Source of the DNA: a virus
Virus record (IMG/VR): IMGVR_UViG_3300043427_001528
Location: 1-34,292 of that record
Reading direction: 5' to 3' (one strand)
Length of the DNA: 34,292 bases
The position numbers and the translations under genes were made by a program. Numbering within the stretch: the stretch's first letter is position 1; each line of letters starts with the position of its first letter. This document shows positions 5,006 through 7,017 of this stretch, piece after piece. The notes beneath the pieces are model-generated. The model searched no databases, was not told the DNA's origin, and worked only from the letters and a program-made list of their open reading frames with translations.

Positions 5006-5478
5006 ACTTGCTTGCGTTCCTTGCCGGGCCGTATCGAATGCTAGGCGCATTGCTTGCGGTGCTGCTGGCTTTGGGGGCGGTGTACTTCAAGGGCAGGGCA
5101 GACGGTAAGGACGCGATCCGTGCCGACTGGCAAATTGAGAAAGACGCGCTGGCAGATGCGCAGTCTCACACGCTGGCGGCTGCGATTGACAAAGCCAACG
5201 AATTGCAACGCAAGAAAACGGAAGCCGAGGCCACCTATGCGAAAGCCCTTGCAGACCGCGACCGCCGTATTTCTGCCCTTGCTGCTAGTAGCCTGCGCGA
5301 CGCCGCAGCCTTGCGTGCTGCCGGAACCGCTGCCGATTCCCTCGCCGCCTGCCGTGCCGATGCCGCCATCCTCCGGGACGTACTCAGCGGAGTTGATGAA
5401 GAAGCGGGAAGACTGGCGGCGGCTGCTGACGCAAGAGCCGACGAAGTAAGGGTGCTTTTGGAGGCATGGCCGCGATGA
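5002..5478 (+). CDS. Rz: i-spanin (Rz-like)
   Basis: 158 residues from the ATG at 5002, which overlaps the endolysin stop as ATGA. Residues about 12-28 form one membrane helix (MLGALLAVLLALGAVYF). They are followed by a long charged coiled coil (WQIEKDALADAQSHTLAAAI and onward), the architecture of inner-membrane spanin subunits. It would span the periplasm and pair with the nested lipoprotein Rz1 to fuse inner and outer membranes in the last step of lysis of a Gram-negative host. The stop overlaps the start of the next gene (ATGA at 5475-5478). Confidence 0.9.
   Translation: MNLLAFLAGPYRMLGALLAVLLALGAVYFKGRADGKDAIRADWQIEKDALADAQSHTLAAAIDKANELQRKKTEAEATYAKALADRDRRISALAASSLRDAAALRAAGTAADSLAACRADAAILRDVLSGVDEEAGRLAAAADARADEVRVLLEAWPR
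5237..5449 (+). CDS. Rz1: o-spanin lipoprotein (Rz1-like), nested in Rz
   Basis: 70 residues, entirely inside the Rz gene in the +1 frame. The ATG at 5237 begins MRKPLQTATAVFLPLLLVAC, a basic-hydrophobic signal ending in a lipobox (LVAC, Cys20). The mature part is short and proline-rich (PEPLPIPSPPAVPMPP), as is typical of Rz1, and ends at the TAA 5447-5449. Signal peptidase II would cleave before Cys20 and leave a 51-residue outer-membrane lipoprotein that binds Rz. The fully nested arrangement is that of phage lambda and confirms a Gram-negative host. Confidence 0.92.
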   Translation: MRKPLQTATAVFLPLLLVACATPQPCVLPEPLPIPSPPAVPMPPSSGTYSAELMKKREDWRRLLTQEPTK

Positions 5479-6554
5479 GCAACGCACTAACAAACGTCTA
5501 TTCTTTCGGCAACAAGCTGCGCAACAACCTGAAAGCGCTGCTGACCGACCCCGTAAATCATCTCGCCTCGCAGGCAAACATCTGGGCGGCGGACATGAAC
5601 CGCGCTCTCGACTCCCCTGCGACTGCGTACCGCCGTGCCGGTGGCGTTATGGCGGATGACACGTCAACCGTTGCCGCTGCGAACAGAGAGCAAGAAAGGA
5701 TGACTGCCGCTCTGATGGGCACCGCGCCGGGGTTTGTTGGGATGACTCGCCAATTTGTTGCCCCGCGTGACGAAGCAATGCGGATTGCGCAGCAAAACGC
5801 GGCAAAGCCGGTTAGCGATGGCGGACTAGGGCTGCGCCCGGATAACACGCCGATGGAGCGGGCTAGGGCGATGGGGTTTGATGAGCGAGAATATATCGGC
5901 GTTCACAAAGCGCCAACTTCAGCCAGCACAGGATACAGCGCTCCTTTGCATGAATTAAACAGAACTTATCCTGACGATATTTATTCAAGTATGGCCGCTA
6001 GGTATTACGGGGACGGCGCAAATCCTTCTCGTGATGCAACGTTAATTCGGAAAATGCAGGCTTTTCGTGCAAAACCTAATGCTCAAGTAGAAGTGTTTCG
6101 AGCGGTTCCTAAAAACGCCGGAGACTCTATTAATCAAGGAGATTGGGTGACTATGGATCGCCGGTATGCAATAGATCATGGAGAGGGAGCGCTAGGCGGC
6201 GATTACAAAATCATCAGTAAGAAAACGCCAGCAAAAACACTTTTTACTGAGGGCAATTCAATTTACGAACTTGGCATTGATAAAACTCAAAAGTTTGCCG
6301 AAGGGCCGGCATCAATGCCGACAATGGTAAGCAACGCAGCGCCATTTGAACGCTCCAGATTCGCCGCCTTTGACCCTGCCCGCGTCAACGAGAACGATAT
6401 GCTTGGATTTGTCAACCCGCGTCTACTTGCCGCACTTGGCCTCGGTAGCGCTGCCGCAGTAGCAGGGAATTCGCTACTGAACAGCGGCAAGAAGAAGATG
6501 GAAGACGCTAAAAAGGCGCGTCAGCAAGCGATTGACAAGGCCGAAGAAAAATAG
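5475..6554 (+). CDS. Protein with ADP-ribosyltransferase-like domain (phage polyvalent-protein type)
   Basis: 359 residues, taking the ATG at 5475 that overlaps the Rz stop (ATGA); an ATG at 5466 is possible but leaves one base after GGAGG. The N-terminal 125 residues are an Ala-rich linker. From about 128 the protein reads ERARAMGFDEREYIGVHKAP, close to the ARAMGFD..VYHGT opening of ADP-ribosyltransferase domains in phage polyvalent proteins. The pattern VFRAVP (Arg209), GDWVT..YA..HGE (222-237) and GNSIYELGID (Glu265) follows, which could be the Arg / Ser-Thr / Glu core of the ART fold. A hydrophobic stretch (about 315-337) and a Lys-rich tail end it. The middle (about 5890-6300) is visibly more A+T-rich than its flanks, so the domain may have been acquired. 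It is last in the late operon, after the spanins. It could be a virion toxin or a host modifier; ART identity is inference. Confidence 0.55.
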   Translation: MSNALTNVYSFGNKLRNNLKALLTDPVNHLASQANIWAADMNRALDSPATAYRRAGGVMADDTSTVAAANREQERMTAALMGTAPGFVGMTRQFVAPRDEAMRIAQQNAAKPVSDGGLGLRPDNTPMERARAMGFDEREYIGVHKAPTSASTGYSAPLHELNRTYPDDIYSSMAARYYGDGANPSRDATLIRKMQAFRAKPNAQVEVFRAVPKNAGDSINQGDWVTMDRRYAIDHGEGALGGDYKIISKKTPAKTLFTEGNSIYELGIDKTQKFAEGPASMPTMVSNAAPFERSRFAAFDPARVNENDMLGFVNPRLLAALGLGSAAAVAGNSLLNSGKKKMEDAKKARQQAIDKAEEK

Positions 6555-6569
6555 GGGGCCGAAGCCCCC
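6543..6569 (-). terminator. Rho-independent terminator of the leftward operon
   Basis: On the minus strand GGGGGC-TTCG-GCCCCC (6569 down to 6554) is a six-pair stem with a stable TTCG tetraloop, directly followed by TATTTTTCTT. It lies 5 bases past the stop of the 36-aa peptide gene. On the plus strand the same stem begins within the stop codon of the ART-like gene but has no T run after it. It therefore mainly ends leftward transcription and may also block read-through between converging operons. Confidence 0.82.
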
Positions 6570-6574
6570 GTGGG

Positions 6575-6685
6575 TTAGAACCAGATGCTCACGTGACCGC
6601 CGCCAATCTTTGATAGCAGTTCTTCGCTGATCTCAATTGCGTCGAGTTCTTCGTCAACAACAACTTCCACTTCGTTCTCGGTCAT
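6575..6685 (-). CDS. 36-aa peptide resembling a double-glycine leader (bacteriocin/RiPP-like) precursor
   Basis: The last gene of the leftward operon. ATG at 6685, TAA at 6577-6575. The peptide starts MTENEVEVVVDEELDAIEIS and ends EELLSKIGGGHVSIWF. The acidic amphipathic N-terminus followed by I-S-E-E-L-L-x-K-I-G-G matches the consensus of double-glycine leader peptides (L-S-x-E-E-L-x-x-I-x-GG) that C39-peptidase ABC transporters cut after GG. The remaining core would be only 7 residues (GHVSIWF), ending in two aromatics. No peptidase or transporter gene lies in this genome, so any processing would use host machinery. The ribosome site is weak (AGAAAG about 9 bases upstream). It is separated from the upstream gene by a 47-base gap with a hairpin. 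It could instead be an acidic host-takeover peptide whose GGG is chance. Confidence 0.55.
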   Translation of the reverse strand: MTENEVEVVVDEELDAIEISEELLSKIGGGHVSIWF

Positions 6686-6703
6686 GGCAGTTTCTTTCTA
6701 GGT

Positions 6704-6725
6704 GCGGGCTGAATCCGCCGCCCGC
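6704..6725. other. GC-rich hairpin between the last two early genes
   Basis: GCGGGC (6704-6709) pairs with GCCCGC (6720-6725) across a 10-base loop, in the 47-base gap between the gene at 6733 and the 36-aa peptide gene. There is no T run on either side, so it is not a standard terminator. It could slow polymerase or protect the 3' end of the longer upstream message. Confidence 0.45.
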
Positions 6726-6732
6726 TGCGCGG

Positions 6733-7017
6733 TTATTTCATATTCCTACCAATCTCAGCCGCGGCGCGGGTAATGGAGCGTCGGGTAGCTGCGCACGGGT
6801 CTTTGTCCGATGAATCAGCGTGTAGATAACCGTAACGCACCGCTTCCCACAAGTTCAACCTCACCGCCAGCCGCAGCGCATCTGAGTCATATATCAGCGG
6901 ACTCCATCCATACGCTTTATCGCCGTCGTTCACGACAACATAATTTTCCTGCACCCAACGCTTAATCGTTAACCCGGCCGCCTTTGCGGCAAGTTCGAGC
7001 AATTCTTTATCACTCAT
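6733..7017 (-). CDS. Conserved small phage protein of unknown function
   Basis: 94 residues, start ATG at 7017 overlapping the previous stop (ATGA). It has the pattern ELLELAAKAAG near the start and SPLIYDSDALRLAVRLNL in the middle. I recognise this layout from a widespread small early-region phage protein of unknown role (usually W.P..DDGDALRLAV.L). Soluble, with no membrane helix or metal-binding cluster. Function unknown. Confidence 0.75.
   Translation of the reverse strand: MSDKELLELAAKAAGLTIKRWVQENYVVVNDGDKAYGWSPLIYDSDALRLAVRLNLWEAVRYGYLHADSSDKDPCAATRRSITRAAAEIGRNMK

Follow-up and report, generated by a model that had tools for sequence, protein, structure and literature searches.

The window analysed here spans a complete IMG/VR virus record (34,292 bases), that of a P22-portal podovirus. 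A reading made from the sequence alone had placed a 36-codon gene at 6575–6685, at the point where two operons meet, and we found it exactly there (6685–6575, minus strand), with a translation that matches the description. The plus strand across the same interval is not open and contains stops, and a regular expression for double-glycine (GG) leaders with a core of at most 15 residues matched this ORF and no other in the 34,292-base window. The gene is the final one of the minus-strand early operon, after 6733–7017 (minus), and converges with 5466–6554 (plus), in agreement with the position claimed for it. The features of the locus are as follows.

5466..6554, plus strand: convergent neighbour, 362 aa; part matches phrog_2579 (ParB C-terminal domain)
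6554..6569, minus strand: terminator-like hairpin directly after the stop codon, GGGGGCTTCGGCCCCC-TATTTTT, read 6569–6554
6575..6685, minus strand: tiny double-glycine peptide gene, 36 codons plus stop, product MTENEVEVVVDEELDAIEISEELLSKIGGGHVSIWF; identified from the ORF list, homologues, purifying selection, and chromosomal relatives
6578..6595, minus strand: predicted 6-residue core HVSIWF; TVGIWFY (7 residues) in other phages
6596..6685, minus strand: predicted leader, residues 1–30, ending I(-12)S E E L L(-7)S K I(-4)G G(-2)G(-1)
6686..6703, minus strand: 5′ spacer with the weak purine-rich site AGAAAG, from upstream sequences
6704..6725, minus strand: hairpin-forming element upstream of the peptide gene, GCGGGC(GGCGGATTCA)GCCCGC, sequence kept in all five phages
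6733..7017, minus strand: early-operon neighbour upstream of the peptide gene, 94 aa, phrog_5086, no assigned function; served to find related loci

A stretch of the 362-aa protein also matches mycobacteriophage proteins, odd company on the lysis-cassette side.

To place the gene among its relatives, we used the 94-aa neighbour as bait, which gave 80 related loci. The same tiny ORF lies at the same position in three of these contigs, and a fourth was found in IMG/VR from its DNA pattern; the homologues are MTENNEVEVVVDEELDAIEISEELLSKIGGGHVSIWF (L002), MIENTEVQTCDDELEAVEITEETLEKVGGGTVGIWFY (L027), MEYNYEDQPVDSEVIEITEETLEKVGGGTVGIWFY (L031), and MQEYNYEDRPEPVDSEVIEITEETLEKVGGGTVGIWFY (L096). Start, stop, and frame are intact in all four, and the only insertions and deletions are of whole codons. 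In the alignment of the five phage copies, 18 columns are invariant, including G28, G29, G30, V32, I34, W35, and F36, so that the C-terminal end reads GGG-x-V-x-I-W-F throughout and the N-terminal part varies freely. The dN/dS ratio was 0.28 for the window against L027 and 0.23 for the window against L096, with fewer changes at amino-acid-altering than at silent sites (Fisher p 0.008 for L027 and 0.0016 for L096). The peptide gene is also kept where its convergent neighbour has been swapped: the window and L027 have a ParB-C-like protein there, and L002, L031, and L096 have a metallophosphoesterase. Together, these sequence comparisons establish 6685–6575 as a real gene under selection. The sequence-only reading had expected small ORFs in related phage genomes to keep the GG and vary in the core, and had named loss of the GG or a broken frame as evidence against it. 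Four further contigs carry the peptide with the GG kept in all, and neither a lost GG nor a broken frame was found among the phage homologues; the expectation of a variable core failed, since the core is nearly invariant among the phages.

The elements flanking the gene are conserved to different degrees. Of the good terminator claimed for the locus, the hairpin is kept in the relatives, but its T-run occurs only in the window and L027 and is missing from L002, L031, and L096. The ribosome-binding site is weak in the window copy (AGAAAG) and good in L027 and L096, which have AGGAG at the same place. The G+C-rich hairpin at 6704–6725 (minus) may be a regulatory RNA element. In L031, the space that separates the GG-peptide gene from the conserved hairpin contains a second tiny ORF with an AGGAG site (MQDAVGFIIAILEWIRFII, 6619–6678, plus); its 19 residues are hydrophobic and amphipathic-looking. 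We considered an attenuator leader peptide, with W-F-Y codons before a hairpin, and ruled it out because that strand has no downstream gene. A sliding-clamp-type C-terminal motif was also considered and set aside, there being no Q.

Wider searches did not enlarge the phage set. A tblastn search with the peptide and a DNA search of 50,697 phage records returned nothing useful, strict DNA patterns run on IMG/VR recovered only the five related phages, and further copies were absent from the whole records of 100 related phages, portal relatives and metallophosphoesterase carriers included. A relaxed DNA pattern run on 84,980 genomes gave chance frames only; it found no true matches because the cores of the chromosomal relatives described below differ. 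Matches to GGGMVAIWF in prophage contigs belong to a separate repeated stretch and were rejected as homologues. That stretch, which ends in ACAALRAGGGMVAIWFGMGYYG and a stop, recurs in more than 20 prophage contigs (L087–L130), which we take to be of Pseudomonas type, in differing upstream frames; either a short RBS-ATG peptide or some repeated element could account for it. As clues to the host of the phage, we looked for tRNA genes, of which there were none, and for the 94-aa neighbour, which had one match in 200 Burkholderiales genomes and none in 101 genomes from the order to which a Xanthomonas MAG belongs.

We then compared the peptide with the substrates of PCAT exporters. The consensus leader of these substrates is L(-12)xxxE(-8)L(-7)xxxxG(-2)G(-1), with a helix from -10 to -4 and hydrophobic contacts at -7 and -12 in the PCAT1 cryo-EM structure (PMC6959990); the pneumococcal Rtg study lists hydrophobic positions at -4, -7, -12, and -15, and mutational data given there indicate that E(-8), although part of the consensus, is not strictly required (PMC7018657). 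When the third glycine is taken as -1, all five phage copies have I(-12), L(-7), I or V(-4), and G(-2)G(-1), and the GGG itself is invariant. They lack E(-8), having L or T there, with E at -9 and -10. The best PCAT register thus places the cut after the third glycine, leaving a predicted core of 6 residues (HVSIWF) in place of the 7 proposed from the sequence. An acidic helix had also been described; the N-terminal part is indeed acidic, but AF2 predicts one helix only, at residues 21–26 (-10 to -5), with low confidence (pLDDT ~60), a stretch that corresponds to the helical region of the PCAT1 substrate. The phage peptides score below the cut-off of every curated family. Below threshold, the only Pfam matches among 24,736 models are ComC and Bacteriocin_IIc, both GG-leader families, and the best weak NCBIfam matches are plantaricin C and pheromone VP1, listed together with a clear chance match; across Pfam and NCBIfam, GG-leader families are the only sub-threshold matches that recur. 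Fifty composition shuffles, including 30 with the GGG and core left intact, gave no match to Bacteriocin_IIc or ComC. The presence of GG-leader features in the phage peptide is therefore well supported by its residue pattern and profile matches.

To look for relatives outside phages, we built a profile solely from the phage peptides and searched 399 genomes belonging to the order Burkholderiales, which we reached via a Nitrosospira genome. Two matches fell in small frames (72 and 83 codons), both in genome G491, and six others in frames of 361–669. The G491 ORFs encode 35–36 aa, MDQIEVIVEEQIETVELSLEQLAQVGGGSLAIIEIY and MDQIEVAVEVQAETVELSLEQLAQVGGGSLAVVEM. The first of them (L358) shares 39% identity and 87% positives with the window peptide over 31 aa without gaps (E 2e-9, a figure for that single comparison), and none of 2,000 leader shuffles scored as high as this pair (p < 0.0005). 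Both ORFs are divergent to a gene, outside the query, that encodes TPR repeats and an HD-GYP-type HD domain (TPR-HD-GYP), the two matches being paralogues in one genome. With the two G491 peptides added, the profile reached another four small ORFs, one in each of four further genomes of the same family, MDQVIEQVEQEVVELSLAELAAVGGGGVPSFE, MNQVLEIVEEREEVEEQVLELSTEFLAQVGGGTNPQTL, MEALVQEVKAQEQVVELTLTELAQVGGGSGGAALV, and MDSTVVEKIVEVQELTLAELAQVGGGFADAIFA, each adjoining a TPR-HD-GYP gene; L371 has two TPR-HD-GYP genes with one peptide each, the second ending in IQLSLSDLDLVAGGSIVCTFG. A class-wide control of 369 genomes gave zero small-ORF matches, indicating that the profile does not match tiny ORFs by chance. 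In the reverse direction, a profile made from chromosomal peptides only (28 sequences) ranked a sister phage peptide first among 66,861 viral ORFs, but with E 0.14, and the window's own peptide was absent from the top 25 of that search. No chromosomal core was an exact match to the phage core, HVSIWF or TVGIWFY. We conclude from the similarity in sequence that the phage peptide is homologous to the chromosomal tiny GG peptides.

A third, weaker GG-type ORF in G491 (ISELALEQLEQVAGG, L370, G491:C2) has a longer tail, and we found no TPR-HD-GYP homologue beside it. In both G491 loci, the TPR-HD-GYP gene is followed by a gene for a 170–174 aa protein (L358:12185–12697, plus; L359:7421–7945, minus) that is 63% identical between the loci and has no Pfam match.

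The association with TPR-HD-GYP could be assessed on regions picked by that gene alone. We sought TPR-HD-GYP homologues in the 399 Burkholderiales genomes and took 18 such regions. Within 1.5 kb of the TPR-HD-GYP gene (84 kb) there were 21 tiny GG ORFs, compared with one in the other 142 kb (Fisher 1.6e-8), and mononucleotide shuffles of the 18 regions gave 2.9 GG ORFs in total. Ten of the 18 regions contain a tiny GG ORF; eight do not, some of them truncated by contig ends. Together with the 7 peptides from the peptide-chosen loci, these 21 make up the 28 chromosomal peptides. They are 32–53 aa long, with a core of 6–7 residues in 26 of the 28 and of 6–8 in 27, and the phage peptide fits this set, with 36 aa and a predicted core of 6 after [AG]GG. 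The typical chromosomal leader ends in LELALVGGG, the full PCAT consensus including E(-8), and example cores are GGDIHWG, GGDIVWG, CGDVIWG, GGDVFVG, AGDVIF, DVTVVIG, DVVQMGG, and EIAVVGS. Arrays occur in several regions: L406 has five peptides, L408 has four, and L412 and L416 have three each. In the tandem arrays at L406:4680–5691 and L408:9443–10135, no peptide scores above any family-model cut-off.

A PCAT-like ORF is present in 9 of the 18 TPR-HD-GYP regions. Pfam identifies C39 and ABC domains in L406, with HlyD beside them, and also confirms HlyD in L408 and L416. In the G491-type loci, the closest to the phage, the PCAT is not adjacent but sits elsewhere in the genome. A C39 gene was found in all 14 genomes tested; in a random sample of 100 Burkholderiales, 52 had one (p 2.5e-4). 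When the TPR-HD-GYP protein is compared with known structures, its TPR region finds many TPR structures, with a weak match to RapF among them (E 0.027), and its HD region finds phosphodiesterases of c-di-GMP and cGAMP. We conclude that, in genome arrangement, the chromosomal tiny GG peptides are tightly linked to TPR-HD-GYP and often to PCAT. The GG-leader interpretation first made from the window is thus strengthened by the conservation of the key PCAT residues, by weak family matches that recur only for GG-leader families, and by chromosomal relatives, several of which lie beside a PCAT. The phage record itself contains no exporter, in line with the sequence-only reading, and no TPR-HD-GYP gene; because no TPR-HD-GYP is adjacent, the phage peptide is an orphan, a phage-carried homologue and not a complete system.

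With moderate confidence, we propose that the phage gene is an orphan member of a Burkholderiales family of tiny GG peptides whose genes adjoin TPR-HD-GYP and, at many loci, an HlyD plus C39-ABC exporter, and that its product is an exported signal acting on the host. The chromosomal loci would read as the parts list of a peptide signalling system: an exporter, short peptides, and, in the cytoplasm, a TPR protein whose output is of c-di-GMP phosphodiesterase type. In this list, we infer that the peptides are the signals and TPR-HD-GYP their receptor. The phage precursor would be made late in the early operon, and its GG and the hydrophobic face at -12/-7/-4 would let the C39 domain of a host PCAT recognize it; after a cut behind the third glycine, the core would be exported as HVSIWF. 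Cleavage and export are predictions, and we assume that the host of the phage possesses the PCAT/TPR-HD-GYP system. The core would most likely be recognized by the host TPR-HD-GYP, of c-di-GMP phosphodiesterase type with a peptide-binding-type TPR front, and the strong constraint on the core may arise because it must be recognized. By mimicking or jamming a host peptide signal, the phage would shift c-di-GMP-controlled behaviour in the infected cell or its neighbours. Of the cargo roles that the sequence-only reading had offered (secreted signal, competition peptide, or decoy substrate), the signal is thus the likeliest, and the other two are less likely. The phage probably carries the peptide as a signal mimic, and the similarity to chromosomal peptides suggests that it copies a host message.

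Several other explanations have to be weighed against this proposal. The main rival is intracellular action on TPR-HD-GYP or another host protein. The product would be an unexported host-takeover microprotein, with the acidic N-terminal part and GGG as a flexible carrier and V-x-I-W-F binding a host protein; alternatively, the uncut precursor may bind TPR-HD-GYP directly in the cytoplasm. The lack of an exporter in the phage fits this explanation, as does a C-terminal motif that is the most conserved part of a peptide whose N-terminal part varies freely, and known phage blockers of quorum sensing such as paratox work inside the cell (PMC11129628). We nevertheless consider it unlikely, because the -12/-7/-4 pattern, the exact GGG register, and the homology to PCAT-linked peptides are left unexplained. 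A decoy that merely occupies the host PCAT peptidase, blocking host peptide export, would account for the conserved leader features in a phage that has no exporter of its own. For that task any core would do, yet all five phages have V-x-I-W-F without variation and chromosomal cores differ; the near invariance of the phage core argues for a function in the core itself, and we give the decoy explanation little weight.

We give slightly less to a competition peptide, a mini-bacteriocin whose core would leave through the host PCAT and inhibit nearby bacteria or the hosts of other phages. Class II bacteriocins and microcins typically have GG leaders, and weak Bacteriocin_IIc and lantibiotic profile matches point the same way, but no immunity-type gene adjoins the peptide in phage or chromosomal loci, the chromosomal relatives accompany a protein of signalling type, and a 6-residue core is far below the size of known class II microcins and bacteriocins. 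Finally, the shortness of the ORF and the weak ribosome-binding site of the window copy would suit a chance or relic ORF over a terminator region, with no protein function. This is highly improbable given the in-frame conservation, a dN/dS of ~0.3, the stronger ribosome-binding sites in relatives, and the survival of the gene while the adjacent one is exchanged.

An exported signal, the reading that we favour, resembles known systems in its parts. The phage peptide shares with PCAT GG peptides (PCAT1/CtA and the ComAB/BlpAB/RtgAB substrates) the GG at -2/-1, the hydrophobic -12/-7/-4 positions, and an acidic leader, in which a short helix is predicted at low confidence; it differs from them in its 6–7-residue core, in the missing E(-8), and in a genome that has no transporter. 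Class II microcins and bacteriocins combine a core of tens of residues with a linked immunity gene, and the phage peptide, with a predicted core of 6–7, has neither. Like many of the chromosomal loci as we read them, the pneumococcal rtg locus (RtgR/RtgS Rgg) has a PCAT (RtgAB), several GG peptides, and a peptide-responsive regulator, but it is Gram-positive, its regulator is an Rgg transcription factor in place of TPR-HD-GYP, and its pheromone RtgS is an SHP-like peptide that is not one of the GG peptides of the locus (PMC7018657). RRNPP systems are defined by a TPR receptor of the Rap/Rgg/NprR/PlcR/PrgX type and a linked propeptide, the mature form of which returns to the cell and binds the TPR domain. 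These systems, including arbitrium AimP/AimR, likewise pair a short linear peptide with an adjacent TPR protein in bacteria and phages; they are described for Firmicutes, with DNA binding or Rap-type activity as output and not HD-GYP (PMC10075063, PMC9126285). As to membership of RRNPP, the chromosomal relatives have a linked TPR protein and an HD-GYP output, with the weak RapF match (E 0.027), and the phage here, unlike arbitrium, has the peptide without a receptor. The phage phiCDHM1 also carries host-type peptide-signal genes, but these are for an agr autoinducing peptide accompanied by the genes that process and sense it (PMC3901668), whereas the podovirus here has a single GG peptide, with relatives of Burkholderiales type. 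Paratox (Prx), which blocks ComR in Streptococcus, is likewise a small phage protein acting on host peptide signalling; it is a folded receptor blocker, whereas the phage peptide here is a pheromone-like precursor (PMC11129628).

GG peptides, PCATs, TPR receptors, and phage-carried signals (arbitrium, phiCDHM1 agr, and paratox) are each already known. In the open-access literature, we found no description of a PCAT with tiny GG-peptide arrays and TPR-HD-GYP in Gram-negatives, or of a phage with a lone member of such a set. PCAT-exported, TPR-sensed peptide signals are known mainly from Gram-positive bacteria. We tentatively suggest, as a possibility somewhat short of even, that the chromosomal loci are an undescribed Gram-negative form of peptide quorum sensing with c-di-GMP output and that the phage carries a stray pheromone gene with which it could steer or jam its host. 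Even with another function, the exporter, peptide array, and TPR-HD-GYP form a conserved genomic unit for which we found no family model or description. The proposal offers a testable signal (HVSIWF/TVGIWFY), a candidate exporter, and a candidate receptor. If it is true, many Burkholderiales own a comparable system wired to c-di-GMP, with signals short enough for gene callers to miss, and one such signal has been taken up by phages.
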